The position numbers and the translations under genes were made by a program. From contig NZ_JAIGNU010000001.1 of the NCBI RefSeq assembly GCF_019711655.1, positions 1,025,501 to 1,089,500 on the forward strand: DNA of 64,000 nucleotides. Direction: 5' to 3'. This DNA is from Qipengyuania mesophila. GTDB taxonomy: Bacteria > Pseudomonadota > Alphaproteobacteria > Sphingomonadales > Sphingomonadaceae. A model generated the notes under the pieces. The model searched no databases. It saw only the letters and a list, made by a program, of their open reading frames with translations, and was not told the origin of the DNA. This document shows positions 3,148 to 16,057 of the stretch, piece by piece; within the stretch, counting starts at the first letter, position 1; each line of letters starts with the position of its first letter.

Positions 3148-4377
3148 ATGAATCTCGACTGGTCTCCCCAAGAGAAGGCTTTCGCGGCCGAGATCGCGGA
3201 TTTCTGCGCTCGCGAACTGACCGACGACATCCGCGACGCGGGACGCCATACAACCAGCGTCTATCCCGATCACGAAGCCTCGATGGCGTGGCAGGCGAAG
3301 CTCCACGCCGCCGGGCTGGCGGCACCGCACTGGCCGGAAGAGCATGGCGGACGCGACTGGTCGGTGGCGCAGCATTATCTCTTCGCCAATGCCATGGCCC
3401 AAGCGCGCGCGCCGTCGCTCTCGCCGATGGGCATCCACATGGTCGCGCATGTCATCGCCGCCTTCGGCACGCCGGAGCAGCGCGCATATTTCCTCCCGCG
3501 CATCCTTACCGGCGAGATATTCTTCTGCCAGGGCTATTCCGAACCCAATGCCGGATCGGACCTCGCCGCATTGCGGATGAGCGCAGTCCCCGATGGCGGT
3601 GATTTCATCCTCGACGGATCGAAGATCTGGACCACGCATGCGCAAGAGGCGAACTGGATGTTCTGCCTCGTGCGCACCAGCAACGACGGCCGCAAGCAGG
3701 AGGGCATCACCTTCCTCCTCGTGCCGATGGACCAGGACGGGGTGACCGTGCGTCCGCTGACGATGCTGTCGGGCGAGACGGTGCAGAACCAGGTCTTCTT
3801 CGATGATGTCCGGGTGGCGCAGGCAAACGTCATCGGCGAGGTCGATCGCGGCTGGCAGGTCGCCAAATATCTGCTCGAATTCGAACGCGGGGGCGGCGCC
3901 TATTCGGCTGGGCTCAAGATCAGGGCGCAGGCCATCGCCGACAATACGCGCGCGCAGGAGGTGGGCGGCCATTCGCTGCTCGACCATGGCGATTTCGGCC
4001 AGCGATTGGCGCGCGCCATGATCCGCATCGACGTGCTCGAAGTGCTCGAACTGAAGCTGCTGTCCTCTGCGGGGCGGGGCGAGAGCGTCGGCCCGATGGC
4101 CTCGCTGATGAAGATCATGGGCACCGAGCTGGCGCAGCACCTGACAGAACTCGCACTCGAGGCGGCGGGACCGAGCGGTACCGTCTTCCAGCCGCATCCG
4201 ACACGACCCGGGGCGGAGATTCCCGGCTACGAGCCGCCAGAGGACGGTTACGTCTCGGGCGAGCCGTGGCAGGCGATCGCGCCGCTGCGCTATCTCAACG
4301 AGCGCGCCGCTTCGATCTATGCCGGGTCGAACGAAATCCAGCGCAACATCCTTGCACGGCACGTCCTCGGGCTTTAA
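3148..4377 (+). CDS. Acyl-CoA dehydrogenase, long (alpha-type) subunit
   Basis: FAD-dependent alpha,beta-dehydrogenation of an acyl-CoA; 409 residues, full length. The N-terminal helical domain (about 1-120) is followed by the flavin-contact signature QGYSEPNAGSDLAAL and the beta-domain KIWTTHAQEANWMFCLVRT, then a C-terminal helical domain closing with YAGSNEIQRNILARHVLGL, the usual FAD/active-site tail. The ATG at 3148 starts the protein MNLDWSPQEKAFAAEI, standard for the family. A second, shorter dehydrogenase converges on it 5 nt away (4383-5477), as in heteromeric alpha2beta2 acyl-CoA dehydrogenases of steroid and isoprenoid catabolism. Transcription probably starts at the operator at 3111-3126. 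Confidence 0.85.
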   Translation: MNLDWSPQEKAFAAEIADFCARELTDDIRDAGRHTTSVYPDHEASMAWQAKLHAAGLAAPHWPEEHGGRDWSVAQHYLFANAMAQARAPSLSPMGIHMVAHVIAAFGTPEQRAYFLPRILTGEIFFCQGYSEPNAGSDLAALRMSAVPDGGDFILDGSKIWTTHAQEANWMFCLVRTSNDGRKQEGITFLLVPMDQDGVTVRPLTMLSGETVQNQVFFDDVRVAQANVIGEVDRGWQVAKYLLEFERGGGAYSAGLKIRAQAIADNTRAQEVGGHSLLDHGDFGQRLARAMIRIDVLEVLELKLLSSAGRGESVGPMASLMKIMGTELAQHLTELALEAAGPSGTVFQPHPTRPGAEIPGYEPPEDGYVSGEPWQAIAPLRYLNERAASIYAGSNEIQRNILARHVLGL

Positions 4378-6326: not shown

Positions 6327-7175
6327 TTACTCGGCGGTATCGTCGGCTGGCTTCGACGCCGCGCCCGAAGCAGAGCCTTCGCCCATCACCAGCGCGTTGC
6401 CGCTGACTGCGAGATCGGCTGCAGGAACCGCGAATTTGCGTCCCTTGGCTTCGACCACGACCTGCTCGACGCGGCCGCGCGAGTCGCTGACGAGCTGGCG
6501 TACCTTGCCCACCGGCGCGCCCTGCGGCGAAAGCACCGGCATGTCCGGGCTCACGGCGAAGGCGCCATCACCCGCGGCTGCCCCGCTGCCCGCGGCGGCA
6601 AGCATGCCGTTGCCGAGACCGGTCGAGCCATTGCCCGAGGCCGCGCCACTGCCCGATCCCATGGCCGAGAGATTTCCGGCCTGCGACGTCAGGTTCCCGG
6701 CGCGATCGCGCGCCGCACCGACTGCGGGCGTCGCCAGATTGCGGGCGGTCGAGACGCCGTCACGCGCCCGGCCCACGCCCCGACCCGCGAGGTCACGCAC
6801 CGCATCGGTGCCGACGAGCTGCGCATCGGCGCTGCCCGAACCCGAGGCCTGGCCGCTGCCCGAGGCGGACCCCGAAGCCGAACCCAGCGGAGAACCGATA
6901 ACCTGGTCGGTCGTCGCGGCCGCCCCGGTGTCGAGCGAGCGGTCGAGCGATACTTCGCCCGAACGGCGATCGACATTCTGACTACCGCTCGTGCGGGCAT
7001 TGCCGCGCAGCGTACCGCGCGTCGCCGAACGCAGCGTGCCGGTCGTGCTCTGGGTGATCGGACCGACGCGGCCGGTCACCTGGCCGAGACCCGAGCCCGA
7101 GAGGAGCTGGGCATGCGCCTGCGGCGCCGCGGCGAGTGCGGTCATGGTCGCTGCTGCGAGGAAGAGCTTTTTCAT
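6327..7175 (-). CDS. Exported low-complexity protein with PRC-barrel-like C-terminus
   Basis: 282 residues. A Sec signal peptide (MKKLFLAAATMTALAAAPQAHA) is followed by about 170 residues rich in Gly, Ser and Ala with GSGS/ASGSAS runs, then a C-terminal stretch (about 205-260) that reads like a PRC-barrel: VLSPQGAPVGKVRQLVSDSRG, then VVVEAKGRKFAVPAADL. PRC-barrels are small beta-barrel binding domains, often in stress or surface proteins. Upstream at 7229-7257 is a promoter-like element identical in design to those in front of the neighbouring sigma-factor-linked genes, so it is a likely ECF regulon member. Envelope function is inference; no enzyme motif is seen. Confidence 0.7.
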   Translation of the reverse strand: MKKLFLAAATMTALAAAPQAHAQLLSGSGLGQVTGRVGPITQSTTGTLRSATRGTLRGNARTSGSQNVDRRSGEVSLDRSLDTGAAATTDQVIGSPLGSASGSASGSGQASGSGSADAQLVGTDAVRDLAGRGVGRARDGVSTARNLATPAVGAARDRAGNLTSQAGNLSAMGSGSGAASGNGSTGLGNGMLAAAGSGAAAGDGAFAVSPDMPVLSPQGAPVGKVRQLVSDSRGRVEQVVVEAKGRKFAVPAADLAVSGNALVMGEGSASGAASKPADDTAE

Positions 7176-7228: not shown

Positions 7229-7257
7229 GGAAACGAACCGGCTCGGCGGCTTAATCC
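7229..7257 (-). promoter_or_regulatory. ECF-type promoter GGATTAA-N15-CGTTTC before the PRC-like gene
   Basis: On the minus strand GGATTAAGCC (7257-7248) is followed, 15 nt after GGATTAA, by CGTTTCC (7235-7229); the ATG is 54 nt downstream. The same two blocks with identical spacing occur at 10259-10287 and 8536-8563. The -35 GGA.. and -10 CGTT pattern is that of ECF sigma promoters. Assignment to the neighbouring sigma factor is inference. Confidence 0.65.
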
Positions 7258-7275: not shown

Positions 7276-8496
7276 TCAGCGCCCCCTGCAATCCCCGCAC
7301 AGCAGGCCACGCCCGTAGACCGGGTCGACGCCCTTCTTGCCGAGGTCCTCGGCTTCGCCGTCGAGCGCGCTGCGCCAGTCGCGGCCGCGGTCGAGCGCCC
7401 GGGCGAGCCGCGCGGCGACCAGCGGGGTCGCGAAAGAGGTGCCGCGCAGGCCGATGCGCTTGCCCTTCGCGTTGATCCCGCGAATGTCCGCACCGGGTGC
7501 GGCATAGTCCAGATGCAGCGCATGACCCGCCTCGATCAGCGCGCGGCGCTTGCCGTCGACGGCGGTGACCGCGATCACGCCGTCATAGCTCGCGGGATAG
7601 GCGGGCGGCGCGGCCGGCCCGTCATTGCCGACTGCTGCGACGACCACAACGCCGCGCTTGCGGGCGCCCGCGATGGCGCGTTCGAGCACCGCGTTCCGCG
7701 GACCGACGAGACTGATGGTCACGACCTTGCTGCCCTGCCCCACCAGCCAGCCGAGCCCGCGGGCGATGGCGAGCGCATTGCCGCCCGCGCTGTCGGTGCC
7801 ATAGACATCGGCGACACGGATCGGCCCCGGATGCTCCGAAGCGAGCAGCGAGGCCACCGCGCTGCCGTGATTGCTCGGATAGGGCGCACCCTCGGCGAAA
7901 CCGCGCGTGGCGACAACGGGCACGGATTTGCCCGGCGCACCGTCGATCATGCCCACCGGCGTGCTGCCCGCACCGCTCCCCGCCGCGGCGAGAGCGAGCG
8001 GAACCGGGCCCGCGCTTCCCGACTGGAAATGGAGATTGTCGGGCGCGATTGTGACCGAGGGGAGGATCCGCTCGAGCGCGTGTTCGGCCTCGCCAAGCTC
8101 CAGCCCCGCGGGCACGCGCAGACGGCTGACGCGCATCCCGAGGTCCGCCAGGTCGACCGTCTCGAGCAGGACGAAACCCTCTGCCCCCGCCTTGGCGAGC
8201 GCGTCCGCGCTTGCGTCGAGCAGCAGCACTTCGCCGCGCCGCGCGGGCTCGCCACGTGAGTCGAGTGCGATCGTGTCGCCATTGCGGCGCACCAGCCGGT
8301 CGATCGTGCGCAGCCGGTCGCGAGCAAGGTCGCGCGCGGTCCGGCTGGTACTCTCGAGCGTATTGTCGGCCAGATCGCCGACCTGCTCGAGCACGCCCCC
8401 CACACGCGGCAGTTGGACGCCCGACAGGCCGACCTGGGCGGCGAGCGGTGTCGCGAGCGCCGCCAGAACGAGGGAAATCGGGGAAATTCGGGGCAT
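7276..8496 (-). CDS. Secreted subtilisin-like (S8) serine protease
   Basis: A 406-residue S8 family peptidase. An N-terminal signal peptide (MPRISPISLVLAALATPLAAQ) and a roughly 150-residue N-terminal region, probably a propeptide, precede a compact catalytic domain. The triad can be placed: Asp185 in GMIDGAPG, His210 in SNHGSAVAS, Ser354 in GTSFATPLVAA, with oxyanion Asn291 in VGNDGPA. The C-terminus holds a Cys pair (LLCGDCRGR). ATG 8496 is chosen because it starts the signal peptide; a TTG at 8517 is the alternative. Divergent from the ECF sigma gene, with an ECF-type promoter at 8536-8563. It acts in the periplasm or outside; a link to envelope stress is inferred. Confidence 0.85.
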   Translation of the reverse strand: MPRISPISLVLAALATPLAAQVGLSGVQLPRVGGVLEQVGDLADNTLESTSRTARDLARDRLRTIDRLVRRNGDTIALDSRGEPARRGEVLLLDASADALAKAGAEGFVLLETVDLADLGMRVSRLRVPAGLELGEAEHALERILPSVTIAPDNLHFQSGSAGPVPLALAAAGSGAGSTPVGMIDGAPGKSVPVVATRGFAEGAPYPSNHGSAVASLLASEHPGPIRVADVYGTDSAGGNALAIARGLGWLVGQGSKVVTISLVGPRNAVLERAIAGARKRGVVVVAAVGNDGPAAPPAYPASYDGVIAVTAVDGKRRALIEAGHALHLDYAAPGADIRGINAKGKRIGLRGTSFATPLVAARLARALDRGRDWRSALDGEAEDLGKKGVDPVYGRGLLCGDCRGR

Positions 8497-8529
8497 CGGT
8501 TGCGTTCTTTGGTCCAATTCGCATTAAGC

Positions 8530-9069
8530 ATGGATGAAACGGGTGGGGTCATCCGTTTAATCCACGGAAGGCAGAAACCTCTGAACCCATCGTTCGAGCA
8601 GGACTTGCTGGCAATGCTGCCCCGGCTGCGTCGTTTCGCTGCCGGCCTTTGCGGCAATCCGGCCGACGGTGACGACCTCTGCCAGATGAGCATCGAGCGC
8701 GCGCTCGCCAATCGCGACAAGTGGCAGGACGGCACGCGGCTCGACAGTTGGATGTATCGGATCATGCGCAATCTCTGGATCGACGAAGGCCGGGCAAGTT
8801 CCCGCCGCCGCGAAACTTTCGTCGCGGAGGAAGCAGGCCTGTCGGTCGGCGGCGATGGCGCGCAGGAATCGGCGGTCGAGCTGTCGATGGTCGATCGTGC
8901 CATGCAGCAATTGCCCGAGGAACAGCGCGAGGCGGTGTTGCTGGTGATGGTGGAAGGCTATGCCTACAAGGAGGCCGCGGCAATCGTCGGCTGCCCCGTG
9001 GGCACGCTCAATTCGCGGCTCGTGCGCGGGCGCGACGCGCTTCTCGAAATCCTGGGAGAAAAGGCATGA
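8530..9069 (+). CDS. ECF-family RNA polymerase sigma factor
   Basis: Sigma-70 family, ECF group: region 2 (FEQDLLAMLPRLRRFAAGLC to RLDSWMYRIMRNLWIDEGR) and region 4 (MQQLPEEQREAVLLVMVEGY, then EAAAIVGCPVGTLNSRLVRGR) are both intact in about 179 residues. ATG 8530 is given, but overlapping promoter elements at 8531-8564 suggest a later start; in-frame options are CTG 8581 (GGAAGG 9 nt upstream), TTG 8605 and ATG 8614. The stop overlaps the anti-sigma start as ATGA. The sigma factor probably drives its own operon and the divergent protease, plus the genes at 6327 and 9868, which share the promoter type. Confidence 0.9.
   Translation: MDETGGVIRLIHGRQKPLNPSFEQDLLAMLPRLRRFAAGLCGNPADGDDLCQMSIERALANRDKWQDGTRLDSWMYRIMRNLWIDEGRASSRRRETFVAEEAGLSVGGDGAQESAVELSMVDRAMQQLPEEQREAVLLVMVEGYAYKEAAAIVGCPVGTLNSRLVRGRDALLEILGEKA
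8531..8564. promoter_or_regulatory. Face-to-face overlapping ECF-type promoters (divergent)
   Basis: An imperfect inverted repeat: arms TGGATGAAACG (8531-8541) and CGTTTAATCCA (8554-8564), 10 of 11 pairs matching. Read on the minus strand it gives GGATTAA-N15-CGTTTC (8563-8536), 40 nt before the protease ATG. Read on the plus strand it gives GGATGAA-N15-CGTTTA (8532-8559), directing transcription into the sigma gene. Each -35 block overlaps the other promoter's -10. If the plus-strand promoter is real, the sigma start codon must lie downstream of about 8566. Confidence 0.6.
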
Positions 9070-9758
9070 CCATCGCGCGCGAGGACATTGCCGCCTTTGC
9101 CGACGGCCAGCTGACGGGGGAACGCGAAGCCGAAGTGGCCGCAGCGATCGCCGCCGATCCGGACCTGCAGCGCGAGGTCGAGGCGCATCGCGCGCTCAGG
9201 GCCCGGCTCGCGGGACACTTCGCGCCGATCGCGGAAGAACCGGCGCCCGACGCGCTGGCCGCCATGCTCGCACCCAGGCCCGCCGAGGTGGTCGATCTGG
9301 CCGCCGCCCGCGAACAGCGCGAGATGAAGCGCAGCCTGCCGCGCTGGAGCTGGGTCGCCGGGCCGGCAATCGCCGCCGCGCTGGCGCTGGCACTGTTCCT
9401 TCCGCGCGGCGGCGCGCCCGAGGGCTATGCCGACACCCAGCTCGCCGCCGTGCTCGACAGCCAGCTGGTTGCCGAGCAGGCCGCGGATTCCGACACGCGC
9501 GTTCTCCTCAGTTTTCGCGATCGCGACGGCGACTTCTGCCGCGCCTTCAGCCGCGATGCGGGGAGCGGGATTGCCTGCCGCGATGCGCATGGATGGAAAC
9601 TCGAAGCACGCGGCGACGGCGCGCGGCAGGCGGACACCGACTACCGCATGGCGAGCGCCAGCAATGCCGAGATCCTCGCCCGCGCGCAGGCGATGGCCGA
9701 CGGCCCTGCTCTCGACGCCGAGGCCGAAGCCCGCGCCCGCGCCGACGGCTGGCGCTGA
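9066..9758 (+). CDS. Membrane-anchored anti-sigma factor
   Basis: 230 residues, coupled to the sigma gene by a 4-nt overlap. The cytoplasmic N-terminus (DIAAFADGQLTGEREAEVAAAIAADPDL) is the usual anti-sigma opening. One transmembrane helix lies near residues 97-115 (WVAGPAIAAALALALFL), followed by a periplasmic domain of about 115 residues containing two Cys (DFCRAF and GIACRD) that could form a disulphide. No HxxxCxxC zinc motif is seen, so it is not a ZAS-type protein. It is predicted to hold the ECF sigma factor at the membrane until a periplasmic signal; the signal is unknown. A stem-loop follows at 9781-9807. Confidence 0.82.
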   Translation: MTIAREDIAAFADGQLTGEREAEVAAAIAADPDLQREVEAHRALRARLAGHFAPIAEEPAPDALAAMLAPRPAEVVDLAAAREQREMKRSLPRWSWVAGPAIAAALALALFLPRGGAPEGYADTQLAAVLDSQLVAEQAADSDTRVLLSFRDRDGDFCRAFSRDAGSGIACRDAHGWKLEARGDGARQADTDYRMASASNAEILARAQAMADGPALDAEAEARARADGWR

Positions 9759-9867: not shown

Positions 9868-10212
9868 TCAGTCGAGGAGATGGACCGTGCCCTGGCGATA
9901 GCCGCGCTTCGCCATGTCGTGGACGTAGTCCTCGCGTTCGTGCTTGAGTTCGTGGGCATATTCCTCCCACGCGTCGCGCCGGTCCTCGAGATCGCTCGCC
10001 CGGCGCAGGTCGCTCGACAGCTCCTTCTGCGTCTCGGCGACATCGATCCGGTAGTCGAACCACAGACTGTTCTCGATTCCCGCGATCGGGTGGGTGAGGA
10101 TCAAGCGCTCCTCGGCACGCGCAAGCTTCTCTTCGTGCAGCATGGGCACGGCAGCGCTCGCCGCGCCGGCCAGACCCAGGGCGATCAGCGAAAGCATGGC
10201 GTTGGTTCTCAT
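9868..10212 (-). CDS. Small exported protein of unknown function
   Basis: 114 residues. The signal peptide MRTNAMLSLIALGLAGAASA precedes a mature part of about 94 residues that is strongly charged and helical (EEKLARAEERL, LRRASDLEDRRDAWEEYAHELKHE), which could form a coiled coil. No known family is recognised. ATG 10212 is chosen because it starts the signal peptide and has an AGGAGAA Shine-Dalgarno just upstream. A GGATTAA-N15-CGTTTC element lies 47 nt before the ATG (10259-10287) and a strong terminator lies downstream, so it is a single-gene unit and a likely ECF regulon member. A periplasmic stress role is inference. Confidence 0.65.
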   Translation of the reverse strand: MRTNAMLSLIALGLAGAASAAVPMLHEEKLARAEERLILTHPIAGIENSLWFDYRIDVAETQKELSSDLRRASDLEDRRDAWEEYAHELKHEREDYVHDMAKRGYRQGTVHLLD

Positions 10213-10689
10213 GTCGGTTCTCCTTCGTGGTGCAGGCGGTGCGAGGCCTGCTCGAAGGGGAAACGGCCCAGCTGCCGGGCTTAATCCATCGATGGAGAAT
10301 TCTTGTGCTGGAGAAGCGGCAGACGGGCTGCGTTCGCGCACCGACCACGGTCGCGAGACGTCGGAATCCGGCTGTTCTCAGCAAAGATCGAGAGATGGTG
10401 CGGAAGAGGCACCGCATCCAGCGGCCTAAAGAACTGAATTTACTGTGATTATCGGGTCTGCAGTCTCGCAAGGCCGCAATTGAGCCCGCATTAAGCGGTA
10501 ACACTTTGATTTACTTTTGTTTTTGGTAGATTCTGGCAAGGGGCCATCGTGTGCAGATCGCAAACTTATGGCCGCTTCGCGCCCGCTCTGCGACCGGAGA
10601 ATACAGGATGCGCCACCTCAAAAAGTTCATGCGAAGATGCGCCGAGACGTGTGGATGCTGGACTAAAGTTGGTGCATTGTCGTCTAACA
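10213..10689. other. Intergenic region, no gene recognised
   Basis: 477 bp between the exported-protein gene (minus strand) and mobA (plus strand). It holds the ECF-type promoter at 10259-10287 and an AT-richer stretch around 10430-10545 (for example TTTGATTTACTTTTG) that probably contains the mobA promoter, although no exact -35/-10 pair could be fixed. No RNA gene was recognised. Confidence 0.5.
10259..10287 (-). promoter_or_regulatory. ECF-type promoter GGATTAA-N15-CGTTTC before the small exported protein
   Basis: Minus strand: GGATTAAGCC from 10287, then CGTTTCC ending at 10259, with exactly 15 nt between GGATTAA and CGTTTC; the ATG is 47 nt downstream. It matches the element at 7229-7257 at all ten bases of the first block and all seven of the second, while the bases between differ. 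Confidence 0.65.
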
Positions 10690-11304
10690 GTGAATCACAC
10701 GCCGCCTTCGTTCAAATACTCAAGCCACTGCATCGTCATCGCATGCGGGGGACAAGGCACTCGCATGGGCGGCGACAAGCCGTGGCGCGCACTGGGGGGA
10801 AAAGCGCTGGTAGAACGGGTGGCCGACTGGGCTTTGGCGCAAAGCGATTGCGTGGCGCTCGCCCTGCGCGATAGACACCAGGCTCCGGCGCTCGAGCTGC
10901 CAGTCGTGCTCGACAGACATAGCGGAATCGGGCCCATCACCGCATTGGCAAGCGCTTTCGATTTTGCTGAAACCAAAGCTTGCGATTACGTCCTAATGGT
11001 CGGTTGCGACCAACCCTTCCTGCCAACGGATCTTCTATCTCATCTCGGGTCGGAGATCGGTAATGCGGCCGCGGCCGTCCCGGTGAGCAATGGGCGGGAA
11101 CAACCAATGGCCACGCTCTGGCGAACGGATTCAGAATCGCTCGCGAAGTACATCGACGACGGCGGCCAGTCTCTCCGTCGCTTCGCCAAAGATGTCGGTG
11201 CCAAATTCGTCGATTGGGACGCGGATGAGGACCCGTTCTTCAATGCCAATGATCAGCATGCGTTGGCTTTGGCCGAGCGTCGGCTCAAAAGCGCAGTGCG
11301 GTAA
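10690..11304 (+). CDS. mobA: Molybdenum cofactor guanylyltransferase
   Basis: Attaches GMP to molybdopterin to make MGD, the cofactor NarG needs. The nucleotide-binding signature CGGQGTRMGGDKPWRALGGK is at about residues 16-35, with later VGCDQPFLP and PVSNGREQPMATLW motifs of the MobA fold. GTG at 10690 gives 204 residues, the normal family length. The frame is open up to a GTG at 10549, but the added residues do not look like MobA and no good ribosome site precedes 10690, so the start is uncertain. It converges on moeA; the two coding regions overlap by 20 nt at their 3' ends. Confidence 0.85.
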   Translation: MNHTPPSFKYSSHCIVIACGGQGTRMGGDKPWRALGGKALVERVADWALAQSDCVALALRDRHQAPALELPVVLDRHSGIGPITALASAFDFAETKACDYVLMVGCDQPFLPTDLLSHLGSEIGNAAAAVPVSNGREQPMATLWRTDSESLAKYIDDGGQSLRRFAKDVGAKFVDWDADEDPFFNANDQHALALAERRLKSAVR

Positions 11305-12463
11305 CCATGGCACCGGGCGCGAGCGCGGCCTGATCAGGCGGGCAGCGGATCAACCAGTCAGCCTGAAGCAGCGCCGCCTGCGCCCCGCTGTCCTGATTGT
11401 CGAGCGGGATCAGTCCGTCTTCGTCCCACCGCGCGCGGGTGAAGGTTTCGCGCGTGCCGGTGGCTTTCAGGCCAGCTGCGAGGGGCAGGCAGCGCCAGGG
11501 ATGCGCCTTCGCCTCGCCCAGCAGCCGCGCCAGGATCGGGCGCAGGAACAGTGCGCCAGTGACCATGGCCGAGGTCGGGTTGCCGGGCAGGCCGAGCACG
11601 ACTGTGCCCCTTGCCTGACCCAGCCACACCGGCTTGCCCGGTTTCATTGCGACCTTGTCGAACCACAGGTCGAGGCCGTGCGGGGCAAACATCGGTTTGG
11701 CGAAGTCGCGGTCGCCGACCGAGGCGCCGCCGGTGACGATGACCAGGTCTGCTTCATCCAGCGCGGCGTCTGCAGCTGCGATCAGCGCGTCCAGTTCGTC
11801 CGCTCCCGTGCGACGCGAGACGACCGTGCCGCCCTCCTGCGCGACCATGGCGGCGACACCGAAGCTGACGCTTTCGGGGATCGCATCGGGCCGAAGATGC
11901 GCGAAGCCGGGCGGTGCGAGTTCATCACCGGTGGCGAAGGTCGCCACGCGGGGGCGCCGAGCAACGCAGACCTCGGAAACGTCTGCCGCCGCCGCCGCGA
12001 CCATGGCCCGCGCACCAAGCCGCGTACCGGCGGGGACCAGTTCCGCTCCCTTTGCAAAATCGCTGGCCACCGCGCGGACATGCGGTGCAGGGCCATAGCC
12101 TTCGGTGAAAGTCACATGATCCCCGTCGCGCGAGGCATATTCCTGCATGACGACGTAATCCGCGCCGTCCGGCAGGCGCGCGCCGGTGAATATCCGCACG
12201 GCCTGGCCCGGTTGGACGGTTCCTGCGAAGCCTCGTCCGGCGCGCGATTCTCCGATGAGCTCGAGCCGTTTGCCGGCTGCGGTCGTCCGTTCGAGGACGG
12301 CGTAGCCGTCCATCGCCGAAAGCGGCTGGCGCGGGGCATCGCAGCGCGCGATCAGCGGCTCGGCCAGAGTGCGCCCCGCGGCATCGGCCAGCGCTATCGT
12401 CTCACTTCCCAACGGGCCGACCTTTGCGGCGATCAATGACAGCGCTTCATCGACGGTTATCAT
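11285..12463 (-). CDS. moeA: Molybdopterin molybdenumtransferase
   Basis: Inserts molybdate into adenylylated molybdopterin. It is 392 residues with all MoeA landmarks: [10 protein letters not shown] and [18 protein letters not shown] early, FATGDEL, then [20 protein letters not shown] and [14 protein letters not shown] 12463 overlaps the moaC stop as ATGA, preferred over the GTG at 12475. It is the last gene of the nar-moa operon and ends inside the 3' end of the convergent mobA gene. Co-transcription with narGHJI would tie cofactor supply to nitrate reductase production. Confidence 0.92.
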
Positions 12464-12936
12464 TCGCTGCTCCACGAGCCGGATTGCCCGCCTTCCTTGG
12501 CGGTCACGCGGATCGCGCCGATCGCCATGCCCTTATCGACCGCCTTGAGCATGTCGAACAAGGTCAGGCAGGCAACGGACACCGCGGTCAGCGCCTCCAT
12601 CTCCACCCCGGTGCGCCCCTCGGACCTCACCGTCGCGCGCACTGCAAAGCCCGGCAGTGCTTCGTCCATGGCGATCTCCACTGCTACTTTCGACAGTGCC
12701 AGAGTGTGGCACAAGGGGATGAGGTCCGCAGTGCGCTTGGCCGCCATCACTCCGGCAAGTTCGGCCGTGGCCAACACGCTGCCCTTCGGGGTCTTGCCCG
12801 TCCTGACCAGTTCCAGCGTCGCGGGGGCGCACACCAGCTCTCCTCTTGCTTCTGCGCGCCGCGACGTCACCGCCTTGTCGCCGACGTCGACCATCCGTGC
12901 GCGCCCGTCCGCATCGAGATGGGTTAGCTTGCTCAC
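12460..12936 (-). CDS. moaC: Cyclic pyranopterin monophosphate synthase
   Basis: Second step of molybdopterin synthesis (conversion of the MoaA product to cPMP). 158 residues, a typical length; the diagnostic stretches [13 protein letters not shown] and [19 protein letters not shown], then KAVDKGMAI are present. GTG 12936 overlaps the moaB stop as GTGA and gives the usual [17 protein letters not shown] beginning. It sits in a run of overlapping mo genes downstream of narI, so it probably shares the nar promoter at 25.5 kb. Confidence 0.93.
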
Positions 12937-13469
12937 GCGCAAACCTCGCGCAGGCGCGGCAATTGCCCGGCAATCGAACAGGGGCGATACCGGCTGTCGC
13001 ATTCGTATTGCAGCACCAGATCCCAGGCGTCGCGGCACGCCCCGGTGGACCCGGGCACGCAGAAGATAAAACTGTCGCCCGCCTGCCCCGCAAAGGCGCG
13101 CGATTGCAGGGTTGAGACGCCAATGGTGCCCATGCTGATCTGATGGAACACCACGCTGAACCCGTCCATCACGCGGCGCAGCAGCGGCATGACCGCTTCG
13201 GGCGTAACATCGCGCGGGGTGAAGCCGGTGCCGCCAGTGGTGAGGACGATCTCGACCTCGGGATCGTCGACCCACGCCTGCACCTGCGTGCGGATGGCCT
13301 CGACATCGTCCTTGACGATGGCGCGCGCGGCGAGGTCATGCCCCGCCTCCTGCAGGCGGGAGGCAAGCAGTTCTCCCGAGGTGTCGGTTTCCATCGTGCG
13401 CGTGTCCGAGATCGTCAGAACCGCGATCTTCAGAGGGTGAAAGGGTAAATTCTCGTTTATTCCGGGCAT
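12933..13469 (-). CDS. moaB: MoaB/MogA-family molybdopterin protein
   Basis: 178 residues of the MoCF-binding fold: [14 protein letters not shown] near the N-terminus, [17 protein letters not shown] in the centre and [15 protein letters not shown] towards the end. Family members adenylylate molybdopterin (MogA) or have an unclear auxiliary role (MoaB); this length and sequence look MoaB-like. It lies between moaE (12-nt gap) and moaC (4-nt overlap) in the cofactor operon. Which of the two activities it has cannot be decided from sequence by eye. Confidence 0.88.
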
Positions 13470-13481
13470 TGTCCGTCCTGT

Positions 13482-13943
13482 TCACTCCTGCCAACGCTGG
13501 GCATCGGCATGGTCGCCGCTGGTGGGTTCGATCCAGCGTTTGCGATCGGGGCTTTCCTCGCGCTTCCAGAATACCGCCTCGGTCTTGAGCCGGTCCATGA
13601 TGAAATCGGCTGCCTCAAAGGCTGCGCGGCGATGGGCCGATGCGGTGGCGACGAAGACGATGGCTTCGCCGGGCGCGATGCGGCCCGTGCGGTGCACCAC
13701 GCGGCAACGCGATATGTCGAAGCGCGCCATGGCATCGGCGGCGATGGCCTTCATCGAGGCGAGCGTTACGCCGCGATAGCTTTCGAGCACCAAAGCCTCG
13801 ATTGCCGCGCCATCCTTCGCCGCGCCGCGCGCATGGCCGGTGAAGCTGACCACCGCCCCCTCCCCACCCAACCCGTGGGTAAAGGCGCCGAGTAGTTCGG
13901 CCGGGTCGAACTCCTTCGTCGCAAGAGTGACCTCTGCGCTCAT
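13482..13943 (-). CDS. moaE: Molybdopterin synthase catalytic subunit
   Basis: Large subunit of molybdopterin synthase, transferring sulphur from MoaD thiocarboxylate to cPMP. 153 residues with the expected SFTGHARG and ALVLESYRGV motifs, RCRVVHRTGRIAPGEAIVFV, a RRAAFEAADFIMD helix and the catalytic-lysine region KTEAVFWKREESPDRKRWIEP. ATG 13943 overlaps the moaD stop as ATGA; upstream in-frame codons give arginine/glycine-rich sequence unlike the family. Confidence 0.93.
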   Translation of the reverse strand: MSAEVTLATKEFDPAELLGAFTHGLGGEGAVVSFTGHARGAAKDGAAIEALVLESYRGVTLASMKAIAADAMARFDISRCRVVHRTGRIAPGEAIVFVATASAHRRAAFEAADFIMDRLKTEAVFWKREESPDRKRWIEPTSGDHADAQRWQE

Positions 13944-14188
13944 CCGCCCGAAACCGGCGGGAACAGCGCCACCTCGTCTCCCGCCATTACCCGTGCATCG
14001 GGCGTCACGATCGTCTCGTTCACGCACGCCCTAACCCGGCCACTGACGAGCGGATGGGCGAGCGCCGGATGCTGCTGCGCGATCAGCCCGAACAGCTCGG
14101 CAACGCTGCAGCCATTCTCGGGGATGGCGATTTGCGCCAAGGCCCCGCCGACATCGGCGAGCCTCCCGCACAACTCGATTTCGAGCAT
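13940..14188 (-). CDS. moaD: Molybdopterin synthase sulphur-carrier subunit
   Basis: Ubiquitin-fold sulphur carrier of 82 residues ending in VALFPPVSGG; the C-terminal GlyGly is the thiocarboxylation site. ATG 14188 is preferred over GTG 14215 because a strong GGAGGA lies about 10 nt upstream and the protein then opens MLEIELCGRLADV as expected. It overlaps moaE by 4 nt, matching the need for equal amounts of the two subunits. Confidence 0.92.
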   Translation of the reverse strand: MLEIELCGRLADVGGALAQIAIPENGCSVAELFGLIAQQHPALAHPLVSGRVRACVNETIVTPDARVMAGDEVALFPPVSGG

Positions 14189-14216
14189 GACCCGTGTTTC
14201 CTCCAACGTTGTCACC

Positions 14217-15248
14217 TCACCCCCCTATCGATGCGAGATGCGGCGTCGCCCCGCTGTCGCCGTCGTGCAGCCGATGCGCCGGGGCTTTGGTCCTGGTCAG
14301 CGCGACGATCCGCGCGACCAGCTCGTCATGCTGATCGTCGTGCTGGAGGAGGGGTCGCAGATCGAACCCGCCATCGCCGAACAGGCACAGATGGAATTTG
14401 CCGTCCGAGCCGAGCCGCAGGCGGTTGCAGCTGGCGCAGAAATCCTTCGCATAAGGGGCGATGATGCCGATCCGACCACGAGCCTTGGCATGGCCGAATT
14501 CCACTGCAGGCCCCGCGCCCGCCTCACGCGCGAGACGCTGCCAGCCGGCGGCTTCGAGCCGTCGTGCGACGCTTTCGCCCGAGACGTGCCGCGCGGCGAA
14601 GAACTCCGCATTATCATTCGTGCGCATGACCTCGATGAAACGCAGCGACAGGTCGCGCGTTGCGACAAAACGGGTCATCGCCTCCAACTCATCGTCGTTT
14701 ACCCCGCGCATCAGTACGGCGTTGAGCTTGATGCTTGAAAACCCGGCCTCGCGCGCGGCGTCGATCCCGGCGAGAACTTCGGCCAGCCGGTCGTGGCCGG
14801 TGATCGCCGCGAACCGCGCCGGATCGAGCGAATCGACACTGATATTGAGCGCATCGACACCGGCATCGCGCCAGCTTTGCGCCCGTTCGGCCAAGCGATA
14901 GCCATTAGTGGTCATCGCCACCCGGCGAATACCGGGCACTGTGGACACCGCGCGCGCCACATCTTCAAAATCGTGCCGGATGGTCGGCTCGCCGCCGGTC
15001 AGGCGCACCTTCCACAGACCCAGGGCGGCGAAGGCCCGCACCGCCCGCTCGATCTCTGTGAGGGACAATACGGAGGGCTGACCGCAGCGTTTGCGATAGC
15101 CATCGGGCAGGCAGTAGGTGCAGCGAAAGTTGCACACTTCGGTGAGCGACAGGCGCAGATATTCGAACCGGCGTCCCAGGCCATCGCGCAAGCGTGGACC
15201 AAGGGGCCCGGAAACAGGCAGGTAATCAACTAGGCGATCGACGATCAT
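14217..15248 (-). CDS. moaA: GTP 3',8-cyclase, radical SAM
   Basis: First step of molybdopterin synthesis from GTP. 343 residues: the radical-SAM cluster motif CNFRCTYC gives Cys39, Cys43 and Cys46, followed by RLTGGEPTIR; a second 4Fe-4S cluster is indicated by CASCNRLRLG with a further Cys in FHLCLF. The protein ends in GlyGly, the conserved MoaA tail. ATG 15248 overlaps the stop of the PpiC gene as ATGA; the frame runs open upstream only inside that gene. It sits directly behind narGHJI-ppiC, the same order as in Pseudomonas aeruginosa. Confidence 0.94.
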   Translation of the reverse strand: MIVDRLVDYLPVSGPLGPRLRDGLGRRFEYLRLSLTEVCNFRCTYCLPDGYRKRCGQPSVLSLTEIERAVRAFAALGLWKVRLTGGEPTIRHDFEDVARAVSTVPGIRRVAMTTNGYRLAERAQSWRDAGVDALNISVDSLDPARFAAITGHDRLAEVLAGIDAAREAGFSSIKLNAVLMRGVNDDELEAMTRFVATRDLSLRFIEVMRTNDNAEFFAARHVSGESVARRLEAAGWQRLAREAGAGPAVEFGHAKARGRIGIIAPYAKDFCASCNRLRLGSDGKFHLCLFGDGGFDLRPLLQHDDQHDELVARIVALTRTKAPAHRLHDGDSGATPHLASIGG

Positions 15249-16057
15249 TGCACGAGCGGCCCTTCGCTTGCAGGAAGCATGATCCCCTCTACCTCTACCC
15301 TGGATGCAAGGATCGCAAGATATTGCGCAGTGGCACGACGAAGCGAGGCTTCTTCCAGATAGGCGCGGATCGAGGCATCGACCGCCTCGAAGGGAAGCTG
15401 GCGTGCCTCCACCTTGCGACCGGCGCGCACCACATGGACGCCGTAGTGCGTGCGGACAGGTTCGGCGCACAGCTCGCCCGCGCCAAGCGCGAATAGCGCC
15501 TGTTCGAATTCGGGCACGGTCTGGCCGGGGCCGATCTGGCCCAGATTGCCGCCTTGCTCGCGCGAGGGGCATGCGGAATGGCTGCGAGCCAGTTCCGCGA
15601 AGCTGGCGGGCGTGGCGCGTATCTGACGGATCAGGCCGCGCGCATCGCTCAACGCCATGTTCCAGGCGATGGTATCCTCGGGTGAGGCAGACAGAAGGAT
15701 ATGCTCCGCCTCGACGAGCGGTTCGCTGGTGAAACGATCGGGGTGCGTATCGTAGAACCGGCGGGCTTCCGCTTCGGTCGCGACCGGCACGGTGACCTCG
15801 CGCTCCATAAGCACTTCGATCAAGGCATCTTCCTCGGTCAGCTTGCGGCCCAGATCGTCCCTCGTATCGTTCGGCGCGATCCCTAGCCGCCGCGCTTCGC
15901 CGAGCAGCAGTTCACGCACCACCAGCGCGCGTGCCGCCGCTTCCCATGCCTCGTCTGCGTCCCTGGCCGGGTGATTCTGCATCTCCGCGGCGATTCGCTC
16001 CTCGCCGATCTCGACCGCGCCCACGCGGACCTTTTCGCGCTCCATCAGCTCAGCCAT
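15245..16057 (-). CDS. PpiC-type peptidyl-prolyl isomerase of the nar operon
   Basis: A 270-residue protein with an N-terminal helical chaperone-like part (about 1-110) and a parvulin domain (about 115-220: VEAEHILLSASPED, FAELARSHSACPS, GGNLGQIGPGQTVPEFEQAL, THYGVHVV). No signal peptide is seen, so it is probably cytoplasmic. A PpiC/NifM-like gene in this position between narI and moaA is known from Pseudomonas nar operons, and a folding or maturation role for nitrate reductase is the usual guess. It overlaps narI by 8 nt and moaA by 4 nt. Confidence 0.82.
   Translation of the reverse strand: MAELMEREKVRVGAVEIGEERIAAEMQNHPARDADEAWEAAARALVVRELLLGEARRLGIAPNDTRDDLGRKLTEEDALIEVLMEREVTVPVATEAEARRFYDTHPDRFTSEPLVEAEHILLSASPEDTIAWNMALSDARGLIRQIRATPASFAELARSHSACPSREQGGNLGQIGPGQTVPEFEQALFALGAGELCAEPVRTHYGVHVVRAGRKVEARQLPFEAVDASIRAYLEEASLRRATAQYLAILASRVEVEGIMLPASEGPLVQ

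Follow-up and report, generated by a model that had tools for sequence, protein, structure and literature searches.

A predicted bidirectional ECF promoter with interlocked elements between a sigma factor gene and a divergent S8 protease gene

The bidirectional bacterial promoters treated in the papers cited here are sigma-70 promoters of Escherichia coli and Salmonella, whose symmetry stems from the -10 element (Warman, Grainger and colleagues; PMC12825309, PMC10268837). By the published rule, transcription in their two directions starts 7-25 bp apart and the two -10 elements overlap each other (PMC10268837). In the bidirectional promoters tested in E. coli, opposing polymerases competed only when transcription rose, and this competition reduced noise from cell to cell (PMC12825309). 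ECF sigma factors offer two further points of comparison, namely the HrpL/hrpJ divergent region of Pseudomonas syringae, where hrpL is transcribed by sigma-54 and repressed (PMC5263251), and the EcfG general stress promoters, which read GGAAC-N16-CGTT (PMC7083833, PMC8103513).

Here we analyse a 64,000-nt stretch of DNA (the window) in which positions 8531-8564 probably (about 85%) form an autoregulated bidirectional promoter of the adjoining ECF sigma factor, with interlocked -35 and -10 elements. Our searches of the open-access literature brought up no apparent description of this promoter or of the sigma-protease pair.

The site and its neighbouring genes

The site is an inverted repeat, TGGATGAAACGG-N10-CCGTTTAATCCA, that reads GGATNAA-N15-CGTTT on both strands (Table 1). 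Its arms, TGGATGAAACGG at 8531-8542 and CCGTTTAATCCA at 8553-8564, are reverse complementary at 11 of 12 positions; the 10/11 given in the initial annotation was counted correctly, and one further pair belongs to the repeat. Both promoter sequences named there, GGATTAA-N15-CGTTTC on the minus strand and GGATGAA-N15-CGTTTA on the plus strand, are present as described, and so is the overlap, in which the -35 element of either promoter (GGATKAA) covers the end of the opposite -10 element (CGTTT) by 2-3 bp. The two -10 elements themselves are separate (8536-8541 vs 8554-8559). Start sites are predicted at about 8564-8567 on the plus strand and about 8528-8531 on the minus strand, roughly 35 bp apart. 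The predicted transcripts diverge, and the earlier label "face-to-face" is wrong. The idea of two overlapping ECF promoters is itself supported by the sequence comparisons below, according to which one sigma factor would read both. By eye, the hexamer TTAAGC, which in the window adjoins the repeat towards the protease gene (8523-8531), recurs in 11 of the 30 family loci, each from a close relative; its position would correspond to the start of the protease transcript.

Table 1 Features of the locus in window coordinates.
Feature	Position	Strand	Details
Interlocked bidirectional promoter (predicted)	8531..8564	.	12-bp arms, 11/12 complementary; 10-bp loop
Sigma-ward promoter (predicted)	8532..8559	+	-35 GGATGAA 8532-8538, N15, -10 CGTTTA 8554-8559
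Protease-ward promoter (predicted)	8536..8563	-	-35 GGATTAA 8563-8557, N15, -10 CGTTTC 8541-8536
Shine-Dalgarno-like GGAAGG	8566..8571	+	9 nt before CTG 8581
ECF sigma factor gene	8581..9069	+	sigma region 2 and region 4 matches; probable CTG start
Anti-sigma factor gene	9066..9758	+	overlaps sigma stop (ATGA); NF052375 antisigma, E 9.5e-9, below curated cut-off
Subtilisin-like (S8) protease gene, divergent from sigma	7276..8496	-	PF00082, E 1.9e-17
One-way promoter (predicted) before 282-aa gene	7231..7257	-	GGATTAA-N15-CGTTT; score 32.0, highest in window
282-aa protein gene, downstream of protease gene	6327..7175	-	secreted-looking (by eye)
One-way promoter (predicted), same type, before 114-aa gene	10261..10287	-	score 28.2
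114-aa protein gene, beyond anti-sigma factor gene	9868..10212	-	no Pfam or NCBIfam match at E 0.001

The sigma gene encodes regions 2 and 4 only and adjoins an anti-sigma gene, as is characteristic of an ECF sigma/anti-sigma module; at the sequence level, the sigma factor's own promoter type also stands before its own operon. The window belongs to an alphaproteobacterium; by sigma factor, the closest named relatives are Erythrobacteraceae such as Qipengyuania. The anti-sigma protein is likely to have a transmembrane segment (by eye), and a homologue occurs in 79 of 80 named loci (the best 80 of 566), the exception being L138. On the other side, the N-terminus of the S8 protease resembles a signal peptide (by eye). 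Homologues of the 282-aa protein are found in 49 and of the 114-aa protein in 14 of the named loci (best 80 of 566); neither protein has a Pfam or NCBIfam match at E 0.001. Elsewhere in the genome, C1:889130-889573 encodes a separate sigma factor, 41% identical to the present one, which we presume to be EcfG. The region from about 10549 to 15572 has the look of a molybdenum cofactor cluster (MobA-, MoeA-, MoaC-, MoaB-, MoaE-, MoaD- and MoaA-like, by eye).

The open frame of the sigma gene extends back to 8413 and includes an ATG at 8530 that overlaps the promoter. To locate the start, we compared 67 loci, comprising the window and the 66 named loci with a sigma-ward core outside the Betaproteobacteria. 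In-frame stops follow the repeat and precede the conserved domain in 8 of them, and lie within the repeat, with no NTG left inside it, in another 23; in 2 a stop in the repeat is followed by a later NTG inside the repeat, and 34 have no stop. Looser borders gave 10, 25 and 32 in place of 8, 23 and 34 for approximately the same categories. If started by NTG, the 8 and 23 loci, 31 in all, must therefore begin beyond the repeat. CTG 8581 is the only NTG between repeat and conserved domain in the window, and relatives carry ATG, GTG, TTG or CTG at or near its position; CTG is the sole NTG there in eight stop-carrying loci (L068, L070, L071, L073, L076, L080, L085 and L106). Sequences similar to GGAAGG (GAAGGC or AAAGGC) appear in the leaders of many relatives (by eye). 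CTG 8581 is thus the most likely start, in keeping with the earlier proposal of a start downstream of 8566, which the relatives' stop codons support. TTG 8605, at the edge of the domain, is a possible alternative; ATG 8530 is unlikely, given its place within the promoter and the in-frame stops of relatives. We suggest correcting the gene start, since gene finders would probably miss the CTG when the obvious ATG lies inside the promoter.

Promoter specificity, conservation and the base-5 trade-off

Palindromes as such are not rare, and 32 position-and-loop combinations in the window match this one in quality (12-bp arms, at least 11 matches, loops 0-30); we therefore dropped palindrome rarity as evidence. 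The promoter pattern is another matter. GGATNAA-N15-CGTTT was seen 4 times per 64 kb on both strands, vs 0.04 expected from 100 simulated windows. The whole 3.13-Mb genome holds the same 4 matches, all within 3.1 kb at this locus, and none to the reversed control pattern; they comprise the two overlapping sites and the one-way copies before two neighbouring genes. Among 149 family genomes, the GGATTAA form yielded 54 matches in 36 genomes and its reversed control 14, so isolated matches outside sigma loci can be due to chance. The spacing is equally specific, with 202 sites at N15 and 0-4 at any other spacer from N8 to N24.

A weight matrix built from 47 unique one-way sites of named relatives, with L102, L144 and the window excluded, ranked the four window sites first, at 32.0, 28.2, 25.2 (protease-ward) and 20.3 (sigma-ward); the next score was 8.5. 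When left out in turn, the one-way sites themselves scored 14.1-37.1 (median 30.4), with 3 of 47 below the sigma-ward and 7 of 47 below the protease-ward promoter. Both promoters may thus be weak, scoring under 44 and 40 of the 47 one-way sites, respectively. The repeat spacer, which no pattern fixes, mostly carries 0.1-0.5 bits per base. Within it, conservation is highest 4 bp ahead of the sigma-ward CGTT, at column 19 of the repeat, where 46 of 56 unique repeats have C; the equivalent base is C in 31 of 47 one-way sites and could be an extra promoter contact.

The repeat is kept in many sphingomonad bacteria. Within the genus, the sigma factor was detected in 24 of 60 genomes (E 1e-60), and the repeat is present in all 24, the window's own included; loss of the repeat in close relatives that keep the gene pair was looked for, and all 24 genus loci retain it. 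In the 30 genus genomes covered by both scans, the repeat occurs in 12 of 12 with the sigma factor and in 0 of 18 without it. At the family level, the exact 32-bp pattern is found in 27 of the 30 best-matching sigma loci, own locus included; the remaining three are L032 and L033, which have a GGAA version, and L016, whose right arm is changed. Across the order, 76 of 396 genomes contain the full repeat, with no reversed-control match in any row, and in all 30 loci retrieved from these 76 genomes it separates a sigma gene from an S8 gene.

The relaxed repeat GGANNAAACG-N12-CGTTTNNTCC is present in 60 of the named loci (best 80 of 566). A divergent S8 gene accompanies 76 of these 80, 59 with the relaxed repeat and 17 without. 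Among the 17, five are one base off, seven are betaproteobacterial with another kind of overlap, one arm is altered in L133, the protease-ward half is gone from L102, and L135, L137 and L138 show no clear pair of sites. In L128 the repeat is kept (3917-3948) and the nearest long divergent gene is NhaA-like (by eye), not S8. The genome G294 carries two copies of the sigma-repeat-S8 unit, L176 and L177, with differing spacers.

Conservation of the arm columns was not counted here, because the row-selecting pattern fixes eight of ten letters per arm and so makes them invariant by construction. We instead selected sites with the sigma-ward core GGA-N19-CGTT, no more than 150 nt from sigma, as the sole criterion; such a core is present in 75 of the named loci (best 80 of 566). 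Outside the Betaproteobacteria, 64 of 66 sites chosen in this way also have the protease-ward AACG and TCC in the required places. The two exceptions are L102, a real loss, and L123, where a second, incorrect match was taken and the repeat itself exists. The same letters accompany 2 of 73 one-way sites, both probably L123's own repeat, misfiled. In the 47 one-way GGAT sites, ACG follows the -35 element in 5 and ATCC follows the -10 element in 0.

Covariation between sites points to a single sigma factor. Before counting, we split the named loci (best 80 of 566) into 15 with a GGAA arm, 51 with GGAT arms and 14 set aside, the last being the 8 betaproteobacterial loci with a shared -35 element together with L133, L135-L138 and L146. 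One-way sites outside the repeat read GGAA in 19 of 19 cases at the GGAA loci (reversed control 1) and GGAT in 47 of 50 at the GGAT loci (control 5), the latter count including the sigma-ward site of L102. Both arms carry the A in 12 of the 15 GGAA loci; in L090 and L092 only the sigma-side arm does, and L107 combines GGAA with GGAC. The arms are unequal in L032 as well. Arms and one-way sites have thus mostly changed together, from T to A at -35 base 4, which is what a shift in the -35 specificity of the sigma factor should produce.

Base 5 of each arm serves one promoter as -35 base 5 and, through its pairing partner, the other as -10 base 6. In one-way sites, -35 base 5 is T in 32 and G in 11 cases (n = 43), and -10 base 6 is A in 2 of 43. 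The repeat arms (n = 90) have G in 69, T in 20 and C in 1, a contrast with a Fisher p of 1.4e-8 that is only nominal, since related species are not independent. Multiplying the -35 and -10 preferences of the 47 one-way sites predicts G at 0.63 (0.32-0.90) and T at 0.31; the observed frequencies in the arms are 0.77 and 0.22. A compromise between two promoters would be expected to give such a pattern, with the reservation that the species are related and the interval is wide.

In all 24 genus loci the sigma-side arm has G and the protease-side arm T (G/T). The protease promoter thereby has the preferred letter in its -35 element and an acceptable one in its -10 element, whereas in the sigma promoter both letters are the less preferred ones. 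Mean model scores in the G/T group are nearly equal (20.0 sigma-ward, 19.6 protease-ward; 8 unique sites), so the protease bias of the genus rests on the element letters and the window's own score. Elsewhere the states are T/G, G/G and T/T, and a sigma tree of 43 among the 80 named loci, in which 17 of 40 inner branches are weak, requires 9 or more changes of state. One shared base pair per arm sets a trade-off between -35 and -10 and may tune direction. We tentatively suggest, at somewhat less than even odds, that the base-5 pair acts as an evolutionary direction dial (T giving a better -35 and a worse opposing -10, G the reverse), while the lock caps sigma self-amplification and keeps the sigma-to-protease ratio steady.

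Beyond these lineages the geometry varies. In eight of nine loci taken to be betaproteobacterial (L122, L127, L134, L139, L140, L142, L143 and L144), two divergent sites overlap at a shared -35 element, GGAANAAAATCC, with CGTT at N15 on either side. In the ninth, L136, the S8 gene lies downstream of the anti-sigma gene and there is no reverse site. A phylum-wide search added 29 loci, 20 of them without the repeat; the flank contains no convincing S8 match in 14 of the 20, and the other six have an S8 match upstream (L157-L160, L162 and L164). Of the six, L162 and L164, from distant alphaproteobacteria, have separated divergent sites or parts of them (by eye). L154 and L156, two genomes of another alphaproteobacterial family, have both repeat and S8 gene. 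The overlap is thus a lineage trait, widespread and not obligatory, and promoters that are separated or differently overlapped in some distant relatives indicate that exclusion is not essential to the module.

Proposed mechanism and alternative readings

The sequences show the sites, their conservation, their common specificity and the base-5 trade-off; transcription from the site, its start sites, the competition, the output ratio and the signal are all predictions of the following model. The same holoenzyme would bind the 32-bp site in either orientation; in one, the sigma and anti-sigma genes would be transcribed (positive autoregulation), in the other the probably secreted S8 protease. Release of sigma by the anti-sigma factor would switch on both directions together with the two nearby one-way promoters. 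Since one holoenzyme would serve both ways, the outputs should rise together and compete only for occupancy. At high activity they would limit each other, because both share one polymerase-binding site, which would cap self-amplification and hold the sigma-to-protease ratio. By analogy with the E. coli promoters, the site would restrain sigma self-amplification rather than form a two-state switch.

Such a switch, with the overlap turning self-activation of sigma and expression of the protease into mutually exclusive states, was the proposal of the initial annotation, and we consider it improbable. The interlocking is visible in the sequence and predicts that one DNA molecule should not carry both polymerases, so that "one direction at a time" would hold for a single molecule at a single instant; beyond that, mutually exclusive states are not supported, as both directions should depend on the same holoenzyme and the same signal. 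In P. syringae, RNAP-HrpL at the divergent promoter does repress hrpL (PMC5263251), but hrpL uses sigma-54, and the case is therefore not parallel to the present site. Competition in E. coli requires raised activity (PMC12825309) and lowers noise, and the seemingly separated sites of L162 and L164 and the common -35 element of the Betaproteobacteria also speak against a switch. That only the protease-ward direction works, with the sigma-ward reading a by-product of symmetry, would fit the lower sigma-ward score in the window and its rank beneath most one-way sites. Against this slightly less probable account stand the T/G loci, where the sigma-ward half is the better one (6 unique; mean 22.4 vs 14.3), the loss of the protease-ward half alone in L102, the rarity of the second promoter's letters in one-way sites, and the leader and start codon that directly follow the sigma-ward -10 element.

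The near-perfect dyad symmetry, and the G at base 5 in both arms of 27 of 45 unique GGAT repeats, could also suggest an operator for a dimeric transcription factor, its promoter resemblance being secondary. It is the one-way sites that separate a promoter from a symmetric operator, as they have the same elements at the fixed N15 before neighbouring genes and are non-palindromic. Arms and one-way sites moreover shifted jointly from GGAT to GGAA, and the arms depart from symmetry at base 5 in each of the 24 genus genomes with the sigma factor, which makes an operator very unlikely. If the repeat acted in RNA, as a hairpin or attenuator within transcripts begun at a promoter further upstream, this would account for the 12-bp stem and 10-nt loop, yet 15 of the 45 unique GGAT repeats have a mismatch at base 5 (G/T 8, T/G 6, G/C 1), and the same 16 letters recur in 60 of the named loci (best 80 of 566) where a hairpin would permit compensated changes. 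Among changes of that kind only the GGAA arms are common, and fixed N15 spacing is a promoter trait; a hairpin is thus the least probable of these readings, bordering on negligible.

Comparison with known systems

A bidirectional ECF promoter at 8531-8564 would share with the sigma-70 class (PMC12825309, PMC10268837) pseudo-symmetric DNA that RNA polymerase could bind either way, predicted mutual exclusion of binding and possible competition at raised activity. The sigma-70 cases have a shared symmetric -10 element and starts most often 18 bp apart. Here, in contrast, an ECF -35 element lies over the opposite -10 element, the -10 elements are separate, the predicted distance between starts exceeds the 7-25 bp of the published rule, one of the two genes codes for the sigma factor, and conservation of the site extends over several genera. 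Given this departure from the rule, we regard the site as likely to work like the bidirectional class, as a variant rather than a member. Its relatives form a ready series (interlocked, shared -35 and apparently separated sites, with four base-5 states) in which the purpose of polymerase competition can be tested.

The HrpL/hrpJ region (PMC5263251) resembles the locus in that an ECF sigma gene is divergent from its own target and a holoenzyme in the gap, predicted in our case, affects both genes; unlike there, both promoters here appear to belong to the ECF sigma factor itself. That system demonstrates, though by a different route, that expression of an ECF sigma gene can be affected by its own holoenzyme sitting in the divergent gap. 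EcfG (PMC7083833, PMC8103513) is likewise an alphaproteobacterial ECF sigma factor with a CGTT -10 element, a self-activated operon (a prediction here) and a divergent target (nepR-ecfG and phyR). The present locus differs from this ECF15 type in having GGATKAA-N15-CGTT in place of GGAAC-N16-CGTT, an S8 protease and an anti-sigma factor in place of NepR/PhyR neighbours, and an anti-sigma factor of membrane type (by eye) that is encoded downstream. If our reading is correct, the site would add to the sigma-70 examples a conserved ECF case whose geometry is different and where a single site would both drive an output gene and provide the feedback of the sigma factor on itself.
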